DNA from: a virus
Direction: 5' to 3' (one strand)
Length of the DNA stretch: 20,498 nt
IMG/VR virus record: IMGVR_UViG_3300049212_000037
Location: 1 to 20,498 of that record
Part shown: positions 88 through 16,142 of the stretch, one piece after another
How the letters are laid out: the number at the start of each line of letters is the position of its first letter
Numbering within the stretch: the first letter of the stretch is position 1
Position numbers and translations under genes: made by a program
Notes under the pieces: generated by a model
What the model was told of the DNA's origin: nothing
Database searches by the model: none
What the model saw: the letters and a program-made list of their open reading frames with translations, nothing else

Positions 88-140
88 TTGCCTTTGGACC
101 GCTGGCCCCTCACAAGGGGACATCAACACGAAGGAGCAAG
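88..140 (+). promoter_or_regulatory. Early promoter-like module, copy a
   Basis: TTGCCT (88-93), 17 bases, then CACAAG (111-116). A short inverted repeat CCCCT/AGGGG (106-110 with 115-119) overlaps the -10-like hexamer. The leader then reads ACATCAACACG, with AAGGAG at 131-136, 8 bases before the ATG at 145. The stretch TTTTCCG-N-TTGCC is shared with the module at 1233. This is the weakest hairpin of the set. That it is a promoter is inferred from the repeated spacing, not from a known consensus. Confidence 0.45.
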
Positions 141-144
141 TCGT

Positions 145-849
145 ATGTCTGACCAAACGAAGTTGATCGACCGGATCAAGGCGCTGCTGGCGAAGGCCAA
201 GGGCACCGACAACGAGCACGAAGCGGACGCGTTCATGGCGAAGGCCATGGCGCTCATGGAAGAGCACCAGATCGACCTCACCCAGCTCGACGATGCCGCG
301 GATCCGATTGCGGAGCGCGCCGGCATGGAGCAGGGCGCTGGTTCGCACGTTTGGGTGACCAACCTCTACTGCGACCTGGCCCGCCTCTATGGCGCTCGCA
401 CCTACTTCGACAACATCTGGACGGCAAAGGGTCGCCGGGTGCGGATTCAGGTCATCGGACGCGAAAGCGCCAAGGTCACGCTCGACCTTATGCACCCGTT
501 CGTTGTCCAGCAGGTGCGCGAGCAGGCAAAGCGCCTCGCCCCGCTCACCGGTATGTCGGTGCAGGGCCAGGCGAAGCGCATCGGCGCGGCGCTTCGTCAC
601 CGCATCTGGAAGATGATCCGCGAGCAGGAATCGGCCGAGGGCCAGGCGATCAAGACCGAGGCAGCGCGCAAGAACGCGCTGGTGACCACGAACCAGACGG
701 TCGCCCTCTACGAGCAGATCACCCAAGGCTTCGAGACAAAGAAGGGCGGCCGCTCGGTCACTGACGGGCTTGCCCGGGCCGCAGCAGGCCAGGTCTCGCT
801 CGCCCGCCAGATGGGCGGCGGCAACCAGCTCAAGCTGGGGTCGAAGTGA
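145..849 (+). CDS. DUF2786 domain protein
   Basis: A 234-residue protein whose first ~45 residues match the DUF2786 pattern: a short helix ending RIKALLAKAKGT, then an acidic HEADAFMAKAMALMEEHQID stretch with I/L spacing. The remainder (about 50-234) is basic and helical and resembles the longer second domain often found after DUF2786 in phage and plasmid proteins. The biochemical role is unknown; no catalytic motif is obvious. I chose ATG 145 because AAGGAG lies 8 bases upstream and the reading frame upstream is open but unconvincing. It is the first gene of the early block, directly behind the module at 88-140, and its stop overlaps the next start (GTGA). Confidence 0.85.
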   Translation: MSDQTKLIDRIKALLAKAKGTDNEHEADAFMAKAMALMEEHQIDLTQLDDAADPIAERAGMEQGAGSHVWVTNLYCDLARLYGARTYFDNIWTAKGRRVRIQVIGRESAKVTLDLMHPFVVQQVREQAKRLAPLTGMSVQGQAKRIGAALRHRIWKMIREQESAEGQAIKTEAARKNALVTTNQTVALYEQITQGFETKKGGRSVTDGLARAAAGQVSLARQMGGGNQLKLGSK

Positions 850-1220
850 AGAAGGGCGATAGCGTCCTCCTCCCCGTCGCTGACGCGCGGGGAGTGAAGG
901 CGGGGGCGCGCGGCGAAGTGGTCGCCGTGCGTCACCTCCCGACCGACACCAAGTCACAGGCGCTGGTGAAGTGGCAGGGCAAAGCCGGTCACGTTGCACA
1001 CGACCAGGACGCCCTGATCTTGCGCCCCGCCGAACCGTCCTGGCCCGAGCTCGCATGGTATCGCGGCTGGGAATGCGGCTACGAAGGCGAGCGGGCCGCG
1101 TGGACAGGCGAGGGCTATACCGCTTACAAGGGCGGGGCTGATCTCGACGTGCCGCAGCAAAGCGCCGCAACGTGGGAGGGGTTGCTCGATCTGATCGACG
1201 ACGAAGAAGACGAAGCCTAG
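846..1220 (+). CDS. KOW/SH3-like small phage protein
   Basis: A 124-residue protein starting at GTG 846, which overlaps the previous stop (GTGA), so translation is probably coupled. Residues 2-58 have the alternating pattern of a small beta-barrel: KKGDSVLLP, then GARGEVVAV, then ALVKWQGKAG. This resembles KOW or SH3-like modules seen in phage proteins. The C-terminal half is Trp/Gly-rich (ELAWYRGWECGYEGERAAW) and ends in a very acidic tail, DDEEDEA. I do not recognise a specific family. A nucleic-acid or ribosome contact would be typical of KOW folds but is only inference. Confidence 0.75.
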   Translation: MKKGDSVLLPVADARGVKAGARGEVVAVRHLPTDTKSQALVKWQGKAGHVAHDQDALILRPAEPSWPELAWYRGWECGYEGERAAWTGEGYTAYKGGADLDVPQQSAATWEGLLDLIDDEEDEA

Positions 1221-1232
1221 GCGCTTTTCCGG

Positions 1233-1278
1233 TTGCCAGCCCCCTTGTTCCTCTGGACAAGGGGGCATGAGCAACGGA
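1233..1278 (+). promoter_or_regulatory. Early promoter-like module with 9-bp hairpin, copy b
   Basis: TTGCCA (1233-1238), 17 bases, GACAAG (1256-1261). A perfect 9-bp inverted repeat CCCCCTTGT/ACAAGGGGG (1240-1248 with 1257-1265, 8-base loop) fills the spacer and the -10-like hexamer. The leader GCATGAGCAAC leads to CGGAG at 1274-1278. It starts 12 bases after the previous stop. If this is a promoter, transcription would start near 1268, which removes the ATG at 1267 as a start for the next gene. Confidence 0.5.
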
Positions 1279-1287
1279 GCAAACATC

Positions 1288-1485
1288 ATGTCCGACTTCA
1301 CGAAGGCCCGCAAAACCACTGCCACGCATACCGTGTCCCTGCACTGCGGGGGTCGCCCGACCGAGGGCATGCGCTGCGTCTCGTTCCGCGCGCTCAAGGG
1401 GGGCAAGCCCACTGGGCGCACCTTCACCAAGCAATTCGACACCGAGGCCGAGGCCGAGGCGTTCTTCAACACCAAAGGGGAATAA
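1288..1485 (+). CDS. Small hypothetical protein (65 aa)
   Basis: Not recognised. The protein begins MSDFTKARKTTATH and contains a basic middle (RALKGGKPTGRTFTKQF) and an acidic heptad-like TEAEAEAFF near the end. ATG 1288 is preferred over the in-frame ATG at 1267 because CGGAG lies 9 bases upstream and because ATG 1267 sits at the edge of the predicted hairpin and transcription start. The MSDF start is shared with the gene at 4451, which follows the same kind of module, so the leader and first codons may share an origin. The next gene follows after 5 bases. Confidence 0.65.
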   Translation: MSDFTKARKTTATHTVSLHCGGRPTEGMRCVSFRALKGGKPTGRTFTKQFDTEAEAEAFFNTKGE

Positions 1486-1490
1486 TCCAA

Positions 1491-1748
1491 ATGGCATACA
1501 CCAACGCAACACTGAGCTTCATGTCTCCCGAGGACGGCGAGATTGAGGTCGAGTTCGAGGTCAACGTCTGCGCCGCCGAGCGGGACGTTGGCATCATGTC
1601 CGACTACATCGACGACTGGAGCATCTCCGCGGTCGATGGCAACACCGACCTGACCGACGAGCGCAAGGCGGAGGTCACGCAGTGGCTCTTCGACGAGTTC
1701 GGCGGGGAGGACGGCCTGGTCGAGACGCTCAACGAGCAGCTCGACTAG
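1491..1748 (+). CDS. Acidic small hypothetical protein (85 aa)
   Basis: Not recognised. A strongly acidic 85-residue protein with beta-like alternation at the start (ATLSFMSPEDGEIEVEFEV) and an amphipathic helix towards the end (DERKAEVTQWLFDEFGGED). AAAGGGG at 1474-1480 lies 10 bases before the ATG, inside the 3' end of the previous gene, so the two are probably co-transcribed. Its acidity would fit a DNA-mimic or inhibitor-type early protein, but nothing in the sequence proves that. Confidence 0.7.
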   Translation: MAYTNATLSFMSPEDGEIEVEFEVNVCAAERDVGIMSDYIDDWSISAVDGNTDLTDERKAEVTQWLFDEFGGEDGLVETLNEQLD

Positions 1749-1754
1749 GTTCCA

Positions 1755-1810
1755 AGCGGGGGTTGCCGAGCGCGATCCCCGCTCCTACGCTCAGCCCAAC
1801 ATCAACGGAG
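1755..1810 (+). promoter_or_regulatory. Early promoter-like module, copy e (variant)
   Basis: TTGCCG (1763-1768), 17 bases, TACGCT (1786-1791). The inverted repeat AGCGGGG/CCCCGCT (1755-1761 with 1777-1783) encloses the TTGCC box instead of following it, so the geometry differs from the other copies. The leader AACATCAACGGAG (1798-1810) matches the shared ATCAAC-GGAG leader. It lies 6 bases after the previous stop. Confidence 0.4.
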
Positions 1811-1817
1811 TTGTCCA

Positions 1818-1991
1818 ATGCTTGTCTTCTGTGTCGTCCTGGCCATCGCGGTCGAGCTCACGCTCGGCTGGGCGTATCTGCGCCTAGCCTCATACCTGAA
1901 TCCGCCGCAGCGCCTTATGAGCTGGTTGGTTCTGGCCATGGCGGTAATGGCGTTCATCGCCGGCAGCCTCGCCGAACGGGCACTTCCATGA
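1818..1991 (+). CDS. Small two-helix membrane protein (57 aa)
   Basis: A 57-residue ORF with two hydrophobic segments: residues ~2-22 (LVFCVVLAIAVELTLGWAYL) and ~35-51 (SWLVLAMAVMAFIAGSL), joined by a short polar loop YLNPPQRLM. GGAG at 1807-1810 is 7 bases before the ATG and follows the module leader. Its stop overlaps the next start (ATGA at 1988). The size and topology would fit an inner-membrane early protein, for example one acting on host membrane functions or superinfection. No specific family is recognised, and it is far from the lysis genes. Confidence 0.65.
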   Translation: MLVFCVVLAIAVELTLGWAYLRLASYLNPPQRLMSWLVLAMAVMAFIAGSLAERALP

Positions 1992-2281
1992 CCGATCCGA
2001 CCCTTGGCTACGCCAACGGACACGCGGACGGCCTCGCCGAGATCAGCGTCCGGGGTTCGTCGCCTGAGTATCTCGCCGGCTACGACAGCGGGCGGATCGA
2101 GGCCATGAAGACCATGGAACGCTGCTCCGCGCACGGCAAGCAGGTGATGCTCGACGGGGTGCACTTTGCCGACGCCATCAGCAACGAAGCTGCTGTAGTG
2201 ATCGCTTGCGCCCTTAACCACGCGGGGACGGATATCCTCGACCCGTGGGCGAGCGACAAGCTGCAAAGTTACCTGGCCTGA
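1988..2281 (+). CDS. Small hypothetical protein with GY-x2-G motifs (97 aa)
   Basis: Starts at ATG 1988, overlapping the preceding stop by 4 bases. The N-terminal third carries two related motifs, GYANGHADGLAE and YLAGYDSGRIEA. This kind of G-Y-x2-G repeat is common in short phage and prophage proteins of unknown function. The C-terminal part (VMLDGVHFADAISNEAAVVIACAL) is mixed helix. Function is unknown. About 50 bases without a gene follow. Confidence 0.65.
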   Translation: MTDPTLGYANGHADGLAEISVRGSSPEYLAGYDSGRIEAMKTMERCSAHGKQVMLDGVHFADAISNEAAVVIACALNHAGTDILDPWASDKLQSYLA

Positions 2282-2333
2282 TGTGGCCGCTCAATCGACC
2301 TTGCAAACTCTTAACGAAAGGGGGTAATACCCG

Positions 2334-2468
2334 ATGACCCGCAAGGAGAAGGAACTGCTCAATGGACGTCGCCCGCCCAAGCTCGCTTGTCCCGAGTGCG
2401 GACGACTGCACCCAAGCATGTTCTCCCTCAAGCGGTGCACTCATGCACCCGGACGCGGAGAGCGATGA
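2334..2468 (+). CDS. Tiny zinc-ribbon-like protein (44 aa)
   Basis: Translation from ATG 2334 gives MTRKEKELLNGRRPPKLACP followed by ECGRLHPSMFSLKRCTHAPG and a short basic end. The pattern C19-x2-C22, H26, C35-x-H37 looks like a small zinc-binding site. A G-rich SD (AAAGGGGG, 2317-2324) lies 9 bases upstream. The 3' end overlaps the next ORF in another frame. This could be a nucleic-acid or host-protein binder. It is short, but the Cys/His spacing makes chance less likely. Confidence 0.5.
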   Translation: MTRKEKELLNGRRPPKLACPECGRLHPSMFSLKRCTHAPGRGER

Positions 2469-2589
2469 ATGGCTAGCGTCCGAGCGCCGTGGCTGCCGAA
2501 TGATGTTCCTCTGGCTGGGCGTGGGCCTGGCCCTTTGGACGGGGCTGGTGTGGAGCATCATCGTCCTGGCCCACCAGCTCAAGGGATAA
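2443..2589 (+). CDS. Small single-pass membrane protein (48 aa)
   Basis: The N-terminal ~20 residues are polar (MHPDAESDEWLASERRGCRM) and are followed by one hydrophobic helix, FLWLGVGLALWTGLVWSIIV, and a short HQLKG tail. ATG 2443 overlaps the previous gene by 26 bases. An upstream in-frame ATG at 2362 has a better SD (AAGGA around 2349) but would overlap most of the zinc-ribbon ORF, so the start is uncertain. The stop overlaps the next start (TAATG). Function unknown; a holin-like role is possible but it lies far from the endolysin. Confidence 0.45.
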   Translation: MHPDAESDEWLASERRGCRMMFLWLGVGLALWTGLVWSIIVLAHQLKG

Positions 2590-2702
2590 TGAGCCAGGAG
2601 GCCGCGTTGCGTGCTGCTACTCTCCATCGGGATAACGCCACCAGCGACGGCCTCCGCCGCTACTGGGATCAGGTGCTTGCCGGGATCAGGGCGCGGCCGT
2701 GA
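2589..2702 (+). CDS. Very small hypothetical protein (37 aa)
   Basis: ATG 2589 shares bases with the preceding TAA (TAATG), and its TGA shares bases with the following GTG (GTGA), so it is embedded in a coupled chain. It encodes one amphipathic helical peptide, MSQEAALRAATLHRDNATSD and then GLRRYWDQVLAGIRARP. No family is recognised. Support comes only from the coupling pattern on both sides. Confidence 0.4.
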   Translation: MSQEAALRAATLHRDNATSDGLRRYWDQVLAGIRARP

Positions 2703-3007
2703 CCGCCCGCCGCATGACCGACGCGGACTACCGCGAGCTCGGGATTCCTGTCCCTGAGCATATGCGCGCCCCGGATGGGGTGAGGGCGATCACTGTTGAC
2801 GTCCGCGAGTTTTACGAAGGATTCCGCAACCCGGGCGCGCCCCCAGCTGATCGCTGCGAGGCGTGCGGGGCGACCGACCAGGAAGCGGGATTGATCTGCG
2901 AAGGTTGCGCCTGTTGCCAATCGTGCTGCAACTGCACGGCGACGGATTGCGACTGCGACAGCTGCAACGAGCGAAGGGAGCAACGCTACAATGACTGGAT
3001 TACCTGA
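2699..3007 (+). CDS. Cysteine-cluster protein (102 aa)
   Basis: Starts at GTG 2699 by overlap with the previous TGA; an in-frame ATG at 2714 (MTDADYRELGIP) is the alternative. Residues 1-50 are ordinary and contain DYRELGIPVPEHMR. Residues 53-89 hold twelve cysteines at 53, 56, 67, 70, 72, 73, 76, 77, 79, 84, 86 and 89, including several C-x2-C and C-x-C steps. That density suggests binding of two or more zinc ions, in a zinc-ribbon or metallothionein-like way. A charged tail follows. The 3' end overlaps the next gene by 17 bases. Function unknown. Confidence 0.65.
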   Translation: MTARRMTDADYRELGIPVPEHMRAPDGVRAITVDVREFYEGFRNPGAPPADRCEACGATDQEAGLICEGCACCQSCCNCTATDCDCDSCNERREQRYNDWIT

Positions 3008-3170
3008 CAACCCGCATCTGCGCGCCCGCCTGGCCGCAATGGATCTCGAAGCTGCCGAGCGGCGCGTCCGCCGCGCTGTGGCCAGACCCGTGCTGATCGA
3101 CTTCAAGGCTGCGCTGTGCTGCGGCACGTCGCTGGGCCGCCGACCGCGGAGCATGTATGTCCCGGATTAA
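2991..3170 (+). CDS. Small basic hypothetical protein (59 aa)
   Basis: A 59-residue ORF from ATG 2991 with a good SD (GAAGGGAG, 2973-2980) 10 bases upstream. The first half is a basic amphipathic helix (LRARLAAMDLEAAERRVRRA), followed by ARPVLIDFKAALCCGTSLG and a basic end. It overlaps the previous gene by 17 bases and the next by 14. No family is recognised. Confidence 0.55.
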   Translation: MTGLPDNPHLRARLAAMDLEAAERRVRRAVARPVLIDFKAALCCGTSLGRRPRSMYVPD

Positions 3171-3555
3171 GTGGGATCGGACAGTGATCGACCGCCCGGG
3201 TGCGCCCGACGCGGTTGCCGTGCTCAAGTATAAGCTCCTGGCCACGCTGGGGAGCTGGGTCTTGCGCTTGCATAAGATCATGGTCGCCGATCCGCCCGGG
3301 CAGTTCCACGGGCACCCTGCCCGCTATCAGATCCGCGTCATCCTGTGGGGCGGCTATGTGGAAGAGATGCTCGACGGTCGCCGGCGTCGCTGGTTCCCCG
3401 GTCGCATCGGGCTGGTGCGCGACACTGACGTGCACCGGATCGACCGCCTGCTAAACGGCCCCAGCTACTCGCTGTGGTTCCGTTCGCCCACCAGCGGGAA
3501 GACGCTGCTGACGGGCTGGGGGTGGCCCCCGGAGAAGCGCGACACTTGGGTTTAA
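3157..3555 (+). CDS. Cupin-like phage protein, possible metal-dependent enzyme
   Basis: A 132-residue protein that resembles small cupin-fold proteins common in phages of proteobacteria. It has a beta-rich core with HGHP (H51, H53), the block VILWGGYVEE (E69/E70), a W-x-PG turn near 79-82, and DVHRI with H93. H-x-H, a later E, a PG turn and a final H are the usual cupin metal-ligand order. The end SLWFRSPTSGKTLLTGWGW also fits that group. The substrate is unknown; it could modify a small molecule or simply bind one. GGAG (3149-3152) precedes ATG 3157. It is the last gene of the first early run. Confidence 0.6.
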   Translation: MSRIKWDRTVIDRPGAPDAVAVLKYKLLATLGSWVLRLHKIMVADPPGQFHGHPARYQIRVILWGGYVEEMLDGRRRRWFPGRIGLVRDTDVHRIDRLLNGPSYSLWFRSPTSGKTLLTGWGWPPEKRDTWV

Positions 3556-3561
3556 CGAGCT

Positions 3562-3652
3562 ACGAGACGGGGTTAATTGGCCGACAATTACCATATCCAC
3601 CGGATCCCCCCTTTAAGTCCGGGAGGGCGTCGGACAGGTTGCCCCGTCTCGT
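3562..3652 (+). ncRNA. Candidate structured RNA closed by an 11-bp stem
   Basis: ACGAGACGGGG (3562-3572) is perfectly complementary to CCCCGTCTCGT (3642-3652). Inside, CCGAC near 3581 can pair with GTCGG near 3629, or alternatively GTCCG with CGGAC (around 3617-3634). These nested repeats would fold a ~91-base transcript into a closed multi-helix structure. No tRNA cloverleaf or known RNA family is recognised. It could be a small RNA, a leader structure, a terminator of the upstream run or a DNA site. Confidence 0.35.
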
Positions 3653-3672
3653 TCCGGCACGTTAGGTGCCAA

Positions 3673-3697
3673 TTAAATGCAAAGGCGTTAATGCAAA
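3673..3697 (+). repeat. Direct repeat, operator-like
   Basis: TTAAATGCAAA (3673-3683) and TTAATGCAAA (3688-3697) differ by one A. They start about 15 bases apart and lie just upstream of an extended-10-like TGTTATACA (3701-3709). Tandem A/T-rich half sites next to a promoter-like box are typical of a regulator binding site, but no good -35 is present. Confidence 0.35.
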
Positions 3698-3716
3698 TTG
3701 TGTTATACAGGTCCCG

Positions 3717-3740
3717 CCTCGGTCGAATCCTCGACTGAGG
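3717..3740 (+). promoter_or_regulatory. 10-bp hairpin before the SD of the next gene
   Basis: CCTCGGTCGA (3717-3726) pairs with TCGACTGAGG (3731-3740) around loop ATCC, with one G-T wobble. The SD GGAG (3744-3747) starts 3 bases after it. Its position is that of a leader hairpin affecting translation or mRNA stability of the gene at 3756. It contains GGTCGAATCC, which looks like part of a tRNA T-arm, but no tRNA can be folded. Confidence 0.45.
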
Positions 3741-3755
3741 GTTGGAGTATGGGCA

Positions 3756-3974
3756 ATGCAGAAGCATCCTATCGTGACGCTCGGGGGCGTCATCCACGCG
3801 CAATTCGTCCGCATCACCGCGGCCGAGCATGTGGATGAACGTGGACGCGGTAAGAACCTCAGACCCGCTCATTGGCTGCTGCGCTTGGCGCCGCTCAACG
3901 ATCCGGATGTGGAGGACATCACCCTCTGCATCTCGGACAGGCGCGCGGAAGAAGCCGGGCTGGTCATTCAATGA
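3756..3974 (+). CDS. Small hypothetical protein (72 aa)
   Basis: Not recognised. ATG 3756 is chosen because GGAG lies 8 bases upstream. The same frame is open back to a GTG at 3666, but that stretch has hairpins and no SD. The protein is mixed: a beta-like start MQKHPIVTLGGVIHAQFVRI, a basic middle DERGRGKNLRP and an acidic LNDPDVEDITLCI. It starts with MQKH, and the next gene starts with MQKQ behind a similar hairpin-SD arrangement. Confidence 0.6.
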   Translation: MQKHPIVTLGGVIHAQFVRITAAEHVDERGRGKNLRPAHWLLRLAPLNDPDVEDITLCISDRRAEEAGLVIQ

Positions 3975-3994
3975 GCTGATGATCCAATAACGTG

Positions 3995-4023
3995 TTGCCC
4001 CTGTATCGTGGGGCGTGTAGCAT
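3995..4023 (+). promoter_or_regulatory. Early promoter-like module, copy f
   Basis: TTGCCC (3995-4000), 17 bases, TAGCAT (4018-4023), the best match to a sigma-70 -10 box within this set. GCCCC/GGGGC (3997-4001 with 4010-4014) forms a short inverted repeat inside the box and spacer. It begins about 20 bases after the stop at 3974. A second, much stronger hairpin follows at 4026-4060. Confidence 0.45.
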
Positions 4024-4025
4024 CA

Positions 4026-4060
4026 CCGGCGACGCATAGGATTCCCCTATGTGTCGCCGG
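4026..4060 (+). promoter_or_regulatory. 15-bp leader hairpin abutting the SD
   Basis: CCGGCGACGCATAGG (4026-4040) pairs with CCTATGTGTCGCCGG (4046-4060) around loop ATTCC; 14 Watson-Crick pairs and one G-T wobble. The GG at the foot of the stem is also the first half of the SD GGAG (4059-4062). Opening the stem base would therefore affect ribosome access to ATG 4070. If TAGCAT (4018-4023) is a -10 box, this hairpin is the very 5' end of the mRNA. Confidence 0.55.
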
Positions 4061-4069
4061 AGATACGTT

Positions 4070-4387
4070 ATGCAGAAGCAACTGTCCCCCGTGCAACGCG
4101 GGGTCGAGATCGTGACCAACATTTCCCAGCTGGGCTGTTCGTCCGATCATTACCAGCAACAGATCGAAGAGCTCCATGAGCTTATGGCGCAGGCAGCGAC
4201 AAACGAGGTCCGCGAGGCCTTGGGCGACCGCCTGCCTGAGAGCGTCCGCGTCATGCCTGTGTCCGTCGCTGCGCTGTGGTTCAGCGGCGAAGAGAACGAG
4301 GGCTCGCCGGAGGCGGAGGCATACTGGGCGGCGACGTCCAAGTTCTTCCGTCGCATCTATCAGGCCTGCGCTGCGGGCTGTAACTAG
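4070..4387 (+). CDS. Hypothetical protein (105 aa)
   Basis: Not recognised. ATG 4070 has GGAG 7 bases upstream. The in-frame ATG 4049 lies inside the 15-bp hairpin and has no SD, so it is rejected. The sequence is helical and acidic (SDHYQQQIEELHELMAQAAT, later GEENEGSPEAEAYW) with aromatic residues near the end (FFRRIYQACAAG) and a total of three Cys. It is monocistronic in appearance, flanked on both sides by promoter-like modules. Confidence 0.65.
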   Translation: MQKQLSPVQRGVEIVTNISQLGCSSDHYQQQIEELHELMAQAATNEVREALGDRLPESVRVMPVSVAALWFSGEENEGSPEAEAYWAATSKFFRRIYQACAAGCN

Positions 4388-4390
4388 GGG

Positions 4391-4440
4391 TTGCCTGGCC
4401 CCTTGTCCGCATGGATAAGGGGCCATCGACCACGAAGGAG
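4391..4440 (+). promoter_or_regulatory. Early promoter-like module with 12-bp hairpin, copy c
   Basis: TTGCCT (4391-4396), 17 bases, GATAAG (4414-4419). The inverted repeat GGCCCCTTGTCC/GGATAAGGGGCC (4397-4408 with 4413-4424; loop GCAT) has one G-T wobble and includes the -10-like hexamer. The leader CCATCGACCACG is followed by AAGGAG (4435-4440). It starts 3 bases after the previous stop codon. Confidence 0.5.
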
Positions 4441-4450
4441 TAAACGTCTC

Positions 4451-4846
4451 ATGTCCGACTTCGATAAGATTCTCGCCAAGGCGCGCGACGCCGCATCCGC
4501 GGCGATCCAAGCCAAGTATGACGCCGGCGAGCGCGAGCAGCCTTTCAACTGCGGCTTCGCTTGGGTCACGATCAAAGGCACCAGCCCCCTCGCCCGTCAC
4601 CTGGCCAAACGCGTCGAAGCGCGCGGCGGCGAGCACCGCCTGACCCGTGAAGAGCGCATGCTGTGGGGCTCGAAGGGCTATCCGAAGGGGTGGCAGTTCT
4701 GGAAGCCCGGCATCTGGCCGACCCCGCCCGCCGACACGCGCTCCTACCAGCAGGACATGGACTTCCATGCCGCGGCAGCGCGCGCCTTCGCCGGCGTGCT
4801 CAAGGAGCACGGGATCGAAGCCGAGGTCGGAACCCGTCTCGACTAA
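4451..4846 (+). CDS. Conserved-looking hypothetical phage protein (131 aa)
   Basis: Starts at ATG 4451 with AAGGAG 10 bases upstream. Helical N-terminus (FDKILAKARDAASAAIQAKY), then FNCGFAWVTIKG, a basic segment with KGYPKGWQFWKPG, and a C-terminal helix, FHAAAARAFAGVLKEHGIEA, ending TRLD. The combination CGFAWV, KGW-x-FW-x-PG, an AFA-x-VL helix and a final RLD/RMD is one I associate with a widespread phage protein of unknown function. No catalytic role is known to me. It is transcribed alone between two promoter-like modules. Confidence 0.7.
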   Translation: MSDFDKILAKARDAASAAIQAKYDAGEREQPFNCGFAWVTIKGTSPLARHLAKRVEARGGEHRLTREERMLWGSKGYPKGWQFWKPGIWPTPPADTRSYQQDMDFHAAAARAFAGVLKEHGIEAEVGTRLD

Positions 4847-4851
4847 GGGGG

Positions 4852-4898
4852 TTGCCACCTTGTCCTGGAAACGCGACAAGGTGGCATCAACCAAGGAG
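4852..4898 (+). promoter_or_regulatory. Early promoter-like module with 11-bp hairpin, copy d
   Basis: TTGCCA (4852-4857), 17 bases, GACAAG (4875-4880). GCCACCTTGTC/GACAAGGTGGC (4854-4864 with 4875-4885) is an 11-bp perfect inverted repeat with a 10-base loop. Here the outer stem is CCACC/GGTGG instead of CCCCC/GGGGG, with both arms changed together. The leader GCATCAACC is followed by AAGGAG (4893-4898). It starts 5 bases after the previous stop. Confidence 0.5.
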
Positions 4899-4905
4899 AT
4901 GTCTG

Positions 4906-5160
4906 ATGTCCAAATACTTCGACCGCGTTGCTGACCTCCGCAACGATCCGTTCTTCCCGTGCTCGCTCGTCAAGGCGCTTTATCTCGCCGCGACCCCGTT
5001 CGTCCGTCGCCAATACGATGATTCCAACTACTACGTTGAAATCTCGTTCAAGGGCCGCGTCCTTGGGCGCGAGGCGCTCCCGTTCAACATGGCGAACGCC
5101 AACCGCATCGGGCACCTTCTCGCCGAGCTCAAGCGCAACACCAAGGGGACGCGCAAGTGA
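4906..5160 (+). CDS. Small hypothetical protein (84 aa)
   Basis: Not recognised. ATG 4906 has AAGGAG 7 bases upstream; a longer in-frame extension upstream crosses the module and is rejected. The protein starts MSKYFDRVADLRNDPFFPCS and has a beta-like block YYVEISFKGRVLGREALPF and a basic end, ELKRNTKGTRK. Its stop overlaps the next start as GTGA, so the two are coupled. Confidence 0.65.
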   Translation: MSKYFDRVADLRNDPFFPCSLVKALYLAATPFVRRQYDDSNYYVEISFKGRVLGREALPFNMANANRIGHLLAELKRNTKGTRK

Positions 5161-5829: not shown

Positions 5830-5957
5830 ATTGATCGCCCGCCCTTCGCATCGCGCGGAATCCTCGCCCTAACAAGGCGTTAACGCGGTCAAGGGTTGAC
5901 GAGCTCGCGTTTCGCCCCCTATGACGTCCTCCCATGTGAAGTCATGGGGTAGCCGAG
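5830..5957 (+). promoter_or_regulatory. Putative late promoter P1, palindrome and leader hairpin
   Basis: A gene-free stretch between the early block and the lysis genes. The perfect palindrome GCGTTAACGC (5877-5886) lies 9 bases upstream of TTGACG (5896-5901). CGCCCCCTA (5913-5921) follows exactly 17 bases from the first T of TTGACG, with TATGAC (5920-5925) as a possible -10 at an 18-base spacer. CCCATG/CATGGG (5931-5936 with 5943-5948) forms a small hairpin near the expected start of transcription. The TTGACG...CGCCCCCTA arrangement recurs at 8361-8389 before the terminase genes. Confidence 0.55.
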
Positions 5958-6593
5958 TTGGACGCCACGGTTCAAGTAGCACTAATCGCGGGTGTCTCGG
6001 CTATCGTTGGCGGAGGCCTGTCAACATTCGCCTCCACGTTCTTGTCCGTTAAGGTGACCGGACGCAAGGACGAGGTCGCGCGTTTGGACCAACACGTCAC
6101 CGCGCTGCGAGATGAGCTCTCGCAATGTGAGGAACGGCATGGAGTCCTCGAAACAAGGCTTAGGGCTGTTGAGCAGCGGTCAACCAGTTACTTCGCAATG
6201 TGGATCAAAGACCGCAATGGACGTCTTGTCTGGCTTAATGACAAGGCGTTCCTTACTCTATTCGCCCCGCTCGGATACTCCCGGGACGAGCTCGACGGAA
6301 AAACCTTCCGCGACCTGCTTGACCCTGTGGCCGCCGAAGAGATCGAGCTCCTTGACCGCGCGGCCCTCGCGCATCCTGGACACACTCAGTCAATCCTGAT
6401 CCAGCTGCACCCCGACTTGCCATTCCTGGTTGTTATCAAGGTGGCGGCCATCAGCGAAAGCGGGGAGGTCCAGTATGAAGGGTGCGCCTATAATCCGAGC
6501 GATCCCGAGATCCGTTCGGCGGCGGGGACGCGCCGCCAGATTCTGCAACGCGGCAAGTCCGCCAATCACATGCTCCCCGGAGACGAACAATGA
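5958..6593 (+). CDS. Membrane-anchored coiled-coil PAS-domain protein
   Basis: A 211-residue protein. Residues ~5-30 form one hydrophobic helix (VALIAGVSAIVGGGLSTFAS) followed by Lys/Arg, which predicts a cytoplasmic C-terminus. Residues ~37-74 are a charged heptad-like coiled coil (DEVARLDQHVTALRDELSQC). Residues ~78-185 read as a PAS fold: WIKDRNGRLVWLNDKAF, then GYSRDELDGKTFRDLLDP, an acidic helix and the closing strands FLVVIKVAAI and VQYEGCAY. PAS domains bind ligands or cofactors, or mediate dimerisation. There is no kinase, cyclase or HTH output domain. The start is TTG 5958 with GGGG 8 bases upstream; I see no better in-frame start. It is the first gene after promoter P1 and overlaps the endolysin start (ATGA), so a role in lysis timing or as a holin/antiholin is inferred. 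Confidence 0.7.
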   Translation: MDATVQVALIAGVSAIVGGGLSTFASTFLSVKVTGRKDEVARLDQHVTALRDELSQCEERHGVLETRLRAVEQRSTSYFAMWIKDRNGRLVWLNDKAFLTLFAPLGYSRDELDGKTFRDLLDPVAAEEIELLDRAALAHPGHTQSILIQLHPDLPFLVVIKVAAISESGEVQYEGCAYNPSDPEIRSAAGTRRQILQRGKSANHMLPGDEQ

Positions 6594-8360: not shown

Positions 8361-8416
8361 GGGTTGACGCCGGCAGGCATCGCCCCCTAATTCTCACGCA
8401 GGCGGGAAGTTCCCGC
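8361..8416 (+). promoter_or_regulatory. Putative late promoter P2 with dyad at the start site
   Basis: GGGTTGACG (8361-8369) and TCGCCCCCTA (8380-8389) are identical in sequence and spacing to 5893-5901 and 5912-5921. The possible -10 TAATTC (8388-8393) is a poor sigma-70 match. A near-perfect dyad GCGGGAA-G-TTCCCGC (8402-8416) lies where transcription would start. The element fills the 99-base gap between the spanin and terminase genes and should drive the packaging and head genes. Confidence 0.55.
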
Positions 8417-15243: not shown

Positions 15244-15303
15244 GCGGGGGACTCCGGTCCCCCGCCATTCCGATAAGGGCATCCGAGCTGGTGCCTTTAT
15301 CGG
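15244..15303 (+). terminator. Two tandem hairpins after the capsid gene
   Basis: Hairpin 1: GCGGGGGAC/GTCCCCCGC (15244-15252 with 15257-15265), 9 bp, loop TCCG. Hairpin 2: CCGATAAGGGCA/TGCCTTTATCGG (15270-15281 with 15292-15303), 12 bp with one G-T wobble and a 10-base loop. Neither is followed by a T-run. They could be weak or factor-assisted terminators or stabilise the 3' end of capsid mRNA. They fill most of the 105-base gap. Confidence 0.6.
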
Positions 15304-15341
15304 AGTGCATTTGCTCCCGGTCCTGAGAAAGGGGATACATC

Positions 15342-16142
15342 ATGGCTAAGAAGCCGACCACCACCAAAACCGAAACCGCGCCGGCCCAGCCGTGGGCTGC
15401 GCCTGCTGCCGCGCCTGCCGCAGAGGTCACTTCCGAGGCCAAGGATCAGGTCACGCCCGCTGGCGCGAACCCGTCCGAAGCCGTCAACGAGAAGCTCGGC
15501 GACGGTGCCGAAGGCAATGGCGGGATTGTGGACAGCGATGTTGCTGCCGACACCGACGCCAACCAGCTCGACGCCCCGGACGAGAACAAGCCCGAGGATG
15601 AGACTTCGTCCATCGAAAAGGACGAGGTAACGCCCGCAGCGTCCAACCCCTCCGAGAAACTCATGGCCGACGCGCCGCAGGCTTCGGAGGATCTCGTTGC
15701 CGAGCACGAAGCGGAGGGACGCGTCCGCGGCCTGCCGCCCAAGGAGGAGGTGCTTGCCGAGGCGAAGGATCAGCTGACCCCGTTCGGCGATGATCTCTCG
15801 CTCCAGGTCAGCCCGCCGCGCAATCCGATCAGCAACTCGGCGACGCCGGCTGCCTCGGACGCACTGCGTGCTCGTTTCGCCGCCCTCGCTCCCGAGGATC
15901 GCGCGAAGTTCGAGGACGCTATCAACAAGCTTGCCGAGCAGATGCTCGACAAGATGGAGCGCAACCAGCAGGCGGCCGAAATGGCAACCAAAATGGTGCG
16001 CGGCCAGGATGTCTATGGCAATCGCGCTCGCCGCGAAAACCACGACGAGACGCTTGGCGGCCTGAGCAACGGAAACGTGCAGCTGAACCGGCGTGCTCGC
16101 CGGCAGGCAGAGCGCGTGCTCCGCGAGCGCACGGCCAAGTAA
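15342..16142 (+). CDS. Low-complexity acidic protein with peptide repeats (266 aa)
   Basis: AAAGGGG lies 7 bases before ATG 15342. Residues 1-30 are Thr/Pro/Ala-rich. A short motif occurs three times: EAKDQVTPAGANPSE (32-46), EKDEVTPAASNPSE (92-105) and EAKDQLTPFGDD (140-151). Residues 175-266 are a charged, mainly helical region (LAPEDRAKFEDAINKLAEQM and a basic RRARRQAERVLRERTAK end). No family recognised. Its position between capsid and connector genes suggests a head-associated protein, such as a decoration or internal protein, but an accessory role is equally possible. Ala/Glu-rich codon use differs little from neighbours. Confidence 0.72.
   Translation: MAKKPTTTKTETAPAQPWAAPAAAPAAEVTSEAKDQVTPAGANPSEAVNEKLGDGAEGNGGIVDSDVAADTDANQLDAPDENKPEDETSSIEKDEVTPAASNPSEKLMADAPQASEDLVAEHEAEGRVRGLPPKEEVLAEAKDQLTPFGDDLSLQVSPPRNPISNSATPAASDALRARFAALAPEDRAKFEDAINKLAEQMLDKMERNQQAAEMATKMVRGQDVYGNRARRENHDETLGGLSNGNVQLNRRARRQAERVLRERTAK

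Follow-up and report, generated by a model that had tools for sequence, protein, structure and literature searches.

The window, i.e., the whole stretch of DNA analysed here, is a linear virus record of 20.5 kb with a GC content of 63%. In its late genes it is similar to siphophages of Variovorax, Pseudomonas, Sphingomonas, Paracoccus, and Rhodobacter, with the portal protein at no more than 50% identity, and a megablast comparison with named phages gave no match at the DNA level. The nearest relative extending into the early region is an IMG/VR contig, L004 (= L056), with a terminase at 76%. This relative encodes a permuted alphaproteobacterial tmRNA (L004:6549-6936, tag ANDNSPATALRLAA), and for this reason the hosts are probably Alphaproteobacteria. 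The early region contains a series of small genes, several of them preceded by the elements listed in Table 1. The gene behind promoter a codes for a DUF2786 protein with homologues in L004 (47% identity) and in Rhizobium phages (38%); for the 84-aa gene behind promoter f, relatives were absent from both collections searched.

Table 1. Promoters, hairpins and associated elements in the early region of the window (SD, Shine-Dalgarno sequence).
Feature	Position	Strand	Composition	Downstream
Promoter a	88-116	+	TTGCCT 88-93, N17, CACAAG 111-116	predicted +1 near 122 (ATCAAC); SD 133-136; gene 145-849 (DUF2786)
Promoter b	1233-1261	+	TTGCCA 1233-1238, N17, GACAAG 1256-1261	predicted +1 near 1267; SD 1276-1279; gene 1288-1485
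Hairpin b	1239-1266	+	12 bp, stops one nt short of predicted +1	
Element c	1755-1783	+	hairpin enclosing TTGCC 1763; TTGCCG-N17-TACGCT, outside the NAYAAG class	ATCAAC 1801-1806; SD 1807-1810; gene start 1818
Gene-junction hairpin	3717-3740	+	10 bp, without class promoter	SD of gene at 3756
Element d	3995-4060	+	TTGCCC-N17-TAGCAT (3995-4023), outside the NAYAAG class	
Element d, main hairpin	4026-4060	+	15 bp, 3' of the second box	directly followed by SD of gene 4070-4387
Promoter e	4391-4419	+	TTGCCT 4391-4396, N17, GATAAG 4414-4419	predicted +1 near 4425 (ATCGAC); SD 4437-4440; gene 4451-4846
Hairpin e	4396-4425	+	13 bp including one G-U, reaching predicted +1 with its 3' foot	
Promoter f	4852-4880	+	TTGCCA 4852-4857, N17, GACAAG 4875-4880	predicted +1 near 4886 (ATCAAC); SD 4895-4898; gene 4906-5160
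Hairpin f	4853-4886	+	12 bp, reaching predicted +1 with its 3' foot	

Four of the elements (a, b, e, and f) match TTGCCN-N17-NAYAAG exactly, against 0.07 matches expected. None of 100 shuffles of the window reached four, and when gaps from 8 to 26 were tried every gap other than 17 gave at most one match. In all four copies the second box is followed, after ca. 6 nt, by ATC(A/G)AC and then by a Shine-Dalgarno sequence. A preliminary description of this DNA had grouped them with c and d as six promoter-like copies. TTGCC is indeed present at each of the six positions, and the distances of 3 to 20 nt from the preceding stop codons are correct for b to f. The spacer of exactly 17 bases holds if the first box is read as the hexamer TTGCCN, but counted from TTGCC it amounts to 18 nt. 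The common second box and the promoter-like character have to be restricted to a, b, e, and f, which fit NAYAAG and share their spacing and +1 region with unrelated phages, whereas c and d have only TTGCC in common with them. The second boxes of c and d match nothing stricter than a loose TANNNN, which chance alone would produce at about two of the 33 TTGCC sites on the plus strand, and as promoters these two do not go beyond chance.

The spacing of 17 is found again in L004, in phages of Rhizobium and across many viruses of IMG/VR. L004 has TTGCCC-N17-GACAAG exactly ahead of its homologue of the DUF2786 gene, and a second copy, TAGCCG-N17-TAAAAG-GGGACATCAAC, ahead of another gene. The Rhizobium phages RHph_Y17 and RHph_X3_2 carry TTGC(C/T)N-N17-GATAAC/GATAAA/GACAAA ahead of DUF2786 and several neighbouring genes, with ATCATCGAAAC-like starts and then a Shine-Dalgarno sequence behind it. 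In gap histograms restricted to loci that had been retrieved without any spaced pattern (1.28 Mb), 19 sites fell at gap 17 and no more than three at any other gap, compared with ca. 0.3 sites per set at gap 17 in shuffled sets; a slightly different pattern gave 20 sites against five at most, and those sites that have a TG at the extended -10 position were at gap 17 in 10 of 10 cases. A scan of IMG/VR returned 45 stretches, many of them with clear promoters 5' of genes, for example TTGCAA-gtttctgcaaggtatgg-GATAAG-gggacATCAACAAGGGAG. Strict IMG/VR patterns that included the GC arms found coding coincidences only, no peak at spacing 17 was seen in the Sphingomonas phages Eidolon and Kimi, and among bacterial genome contigs the consensus had just five scattered matches, in Clostridia and a Chloroflexota MAG, none of them alphaproteobacterial. 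We also observed that a near-identical promoter block, TTGCAAgtttctgcaaggtatggGATAAGgggacATCAACAAGGGAG, occurs in many different viral contigs (L098, L100, L101, L102, L104, L105, L114, L121, L122, L128, L132, and L133).

Sigma-70 promoters start transcription 5-8 nt past the -10 hexamer, and the first A of ATC(A/G)A is conserved within this range, at 6-7 nt after the second box. The assignment of a, b, e, and f to a sigma-70-type promoter class is well supported by the spacing and the +1 region conserved in unrelated phages. Their -35 box begins with TTG and their -10 box has an A at position 2, but position 1 is G or C, and both GACAAG and CACAAG make weak -10 boxes. In the sphingomonad Zymomonas mobilis the published sigma-A consensus (TTGNNN, 17 bp, TANNNN, a discriminator of 6, and no T at -7; PMC7566282) is very similar in its TTGNNN, its 17-bp spacer, the ca. 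6 nt to +1 and the dispensable T at -7. The absent final T of the phage -10 is therefore no objection. Unlike the Zymomonas promoters, the phage class prefers TTGC together with GAYAA (G or C at -12) and has a conserved ATCRA start. The consensus of the class is TTGCNN, 17 bp, GAYAAN or close to it, a predicted +1 at ATC(A/G)A ca. 6 nt further on, a very short leader and a Shine-Dalgarno sequence, and it is typical of this phage group. No description of TTGC-17-GATAA promoters was found in the literature searched, which consisted mostly of work outside subscription journals. We consider the promoter class a solid and useful finding that provides a usable promoter consensus for a large and poorly annotated set of phages.

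On top of the promoters there is a second layer, made of hairpins. The stems of b, e, and f have 12-13 bp and -23 to -26 kcal/mol and, together with the one at L004:3205, they were more stable than all of 1000 shuffles in which only the 17-nt spacer was permuted (p<=0.001). The hairpin of copy a is a weak CCCC/GGGG pairing that was not significant in the same test (p 0.65), and there was no excess over spacer shuffles at L004:2482 or L074:2606, nor in other viruses with the same promoter class (Fisher p 0.23). The hairpin is therefore not part of the class, most of whose promoters lack it. In the Rhizobium phages a milder excess was found in some copies (p 0.004 and 0.001 in RHph_Y17; Fisher over 12 copies 6e-5).

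The arms of the strong hairpins change together. Aligned, those of b, e, f, and L004:3205 contain three pairs with changes on both sides and 93.8% of the cells paired, a percentage biased by the choice of rows from folded elements; in this alignment of only four rows the covariation score was 0.389, against 0.180 in shuffles and at most 0.111 in slid controls. The distance between the CCTTGT and ACAAGG arms is 8, 8, 12, and 14 nt in b, e, f, and L004, while that from TTGCC to ACAAG is fixed. Every imperfect pair in these four stems is a sense-strand G-U, and folding the antisense strand gave weaker structures. Two pairs vary among the Rhizobium orthologues, G-U keeping both of them paired. The co-change of the arms noticed in the preliminary description is hence confirmed, with selection on pairing applying to b, e, f, and a relative rather than to all six copies. 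The idea of six copies of one hairpin element did not survive: the promoter class is conserved without the hairpin, only four copies belong together, the hairpin of c encloses TTGCC and that of d lies downstream.

Leaving aside the outer helix of b, the main helices have their 3' foot at -1 (b), 0 (e), 0 (f), and -2 (L004), counted from the predicted +1, and the hairpin centres lie about 14.5-17.5 nt from it. In the Rhizobium copies the feet are at -7/-8 and not at +1. A foot at the predicted +1 means that RNA started locally would lack the hairpin and that only read-through RNA would carry one, just before the Shine-Dalgarno sequence. We infer that the promoters fire at the predicted +1 and that it is in read-through RNA that the hairpin has its effect; the spacing, the conservation, the hairpin excess, the arm covariation and the coincidence of foot and predicted +1 are direct observations. 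Promoters a, b, e, and f would be single-gene promoters, probably read by the host RNA polymerase, and in b, e, f, and L004:3205 a spacer complementary to the -10 and the discriminator would give read-through RNA a strong hairpin that is missing from promoter-started RNA. There it would most likely mark or protect the junction rather than mask the Shine-Dalgarno sequence, as a barrier shielding the 3' end of the upstream message, as a processing point or as insulation of the downstream start. This explanation as a whole, sigma-70-type promoters overlaid by a hairpin acting in read-through RNA, we regard as reasonably probable.

One alternative is that the hairpin terminates the upstream transcript, as a perhaps U-less terminator fused to a promoter. 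It stands 3-20 nt past stop codons, canonical terminators are no commoner in the window than in shuffles, and the hairpin after the capsid gene (15244-15265) is U-less, the one in its place in L004 having TTTTT. However, no U-tract follows b, e, or f on either strand, so that the hairpin is not a canonical terminator. Moreover, a Rhizobium phage has a separate canonical terminator just ahead of a hairpin promoter, and the occurrence of the hairpin in spite of it weakens a simple 3'-end role. The suggestion that the element ends the upstream transcript has no support in its canonical form, though the hairpin may have a processing or 3'-end role, and we think that termination is an unlikely function.

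A translational switch of the T4 type, in which the Shine-Dalgarno sequence is hidden in read-through RNA and freed in the local transcript, appears to us unlikely to about the same degree. In T4, late promoters overlap hairpins at e, soc, and I-TevI (also at mobE of Aeh1), the promoter DNA encoding one strand of a hairpin that forms only in read-through RNA (PMC3014915, PMC2988022). The promoter-inside-hairpin layout matches these T4 cases, and at one Rhizobium phage promoter (L087:6704, L146:2495) the Shine-Dalgarno sequence is predicted free at 0.12 and 0.00 in read-through RNA versus 0.90 and 0.69 in local RNA. In the window it is no less free in read-through than in local RNA for e (0.31/0.31) and f (0.54/0.43), and for b the difference is marginal (0.16/0.25). 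The promoter/hairpin overlap thereby varies a strategy already known from phages: as in T4, the 5' arm precedes the predicted +1 and would be missing from the local RNA. However, the T4 helix takes in the Shine-Dalgarno sequence or the start codon and its 3' strand is transcribed locally, whereas in the window the main hairpin lies entirely 5' of the predicted +1 and the Shine-Dalgarno sequence is left free in e and f, with b marginal. Among published layouts, seg43(25) of Aeromonas phage 25 comes nearest: there, too, a predicted hairpin of great stability and unknown effect stands just 5' of an unmasked ribosome binding site (PMC2988022). That case concerns a single homing-endonuclease gene of a T4-like phage, while here the arrangement recurs ahead of a number of small early genes and is fused with a -35/-10 promoter. 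At the Rhizobium phage loci L087:6704, L144:2519, and L146:2495 a promoter of the window's class was found within a long hairpin with the Shine-Dalgarno sequence in the 3' arm and a UA/CG co-change between strains.

Somewhat less probable still is that the dyad serves as an operator in the DNA, for a repressor of phage or host that covers the promoter. The arms do include the -10 and are palindromic in b, e, f, and L004. But the CCTTGT-ACAAGG spacing ranges from 8 to 14 nt, and outside the -10 there are pairs that differ in sequence and yet stay paired, the departures being G-U and not A-C. The varying arm spacing, the double-sided changes, the sense-strand G-U pairs and the weaker antisense folds favour an RNA hairpin of the sense strand over an operator or cruciform in DNA.

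The preliminary description had also raised the possibility of a hairpin promoter with its own dedicated polymerase, as in N4, where recognition by the virion polymerase requires a hairpin at a fixed distance to +1. The hairpin does adjoin the predicted start site, but the boxes, spacing, and +1 recur without it in copy a, in L004:2482, and in many viruses, the -35/-10 spacing is of the sigma-70 type, and no polymerase gene was noticed in the window, itself a genome fragment; we consider this very improbable. Accidental boxes and stems in GC-rich intergenic sequence might be suspected at such a GC content and with 8-bp stems in the window about as frequent as in shuffles, but the spacing peak, the shuffle tests and the covariation make chance as remote as an N4-like promoter, and for a, b, e, and f it is refuted.

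Returning to promoters overlaid by a hairpin in read-through RNA, we tentatively propose a repeated module in which selection would have made the promoter DNA from -35 to -1 encode a hairpin in RNA. Each small early gene could in this way have two RNA forms, a hairpin-capped read-through and a clean local one, which the cell might distinguish at the RNA level with the ribosome binding site unmasked. The T4 idea of coupling promoter and RNA structure would then have a counterpart in unrelated siphophages, with the ribosome binding site left open. This is testable, as named and cultivable Rhizobium phages carry promoter/hairpin elements.

Strong folding is a general feature of the junctions between genes in the window, where z averaged -3.4 (n=8) versus -0.4 at random places, and it extends to junctions that have no class promoter, with the hairpins at 3717-3740 and 4026-4060. 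The junctions of the Rhizobium phages are also strongly folded (mean z -1.9), and no excess of junction hairpins was detected in the Sphingomonas phages Eidolon, Kimi, and Birtae. After the capsid gene there are two strong tandem hairpins without a U-tract (15244-15307), the L004 hairpin with TTTTT being at 16020-16053. A long imperfect inverted repeat (3562-3652), with 24-nt arms 43 nt apart, is located inside a non-coding stretch of 200 nt; tRNA and Rfam searches gave no match to it, and Rfam against the whole window gave nothing above threshold. In the region of element d (3987-4065) CcsR1, an sRNA of Rhodobacter, matched weakly, with 29 bits (E 4e-5) against a gathering threshold of 65; we discarded this match, in which the CcsR1 CCUCCUCCC motif is missing.

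Further downstream, positions 5958-6593 code for a PAS-domain protein (Pfam PAS_4, E 1.4e-6) that probably has a membrane segment at its N terminus, directly preceding a 218-aa gene at 6590 whose product is lysozyme-like in appearance; the PAS part is apparently missing from the L004 counterpart. Finally, intergenic gaps at 5896-5924 and 8364-8392 contain promoter-like sites of another kind (TTGACG-N17-CTATGA/CTAATT), one ahead of the presumed lysis genes and the other ahead of the terminase genes, which are nearer to host-type promoters.
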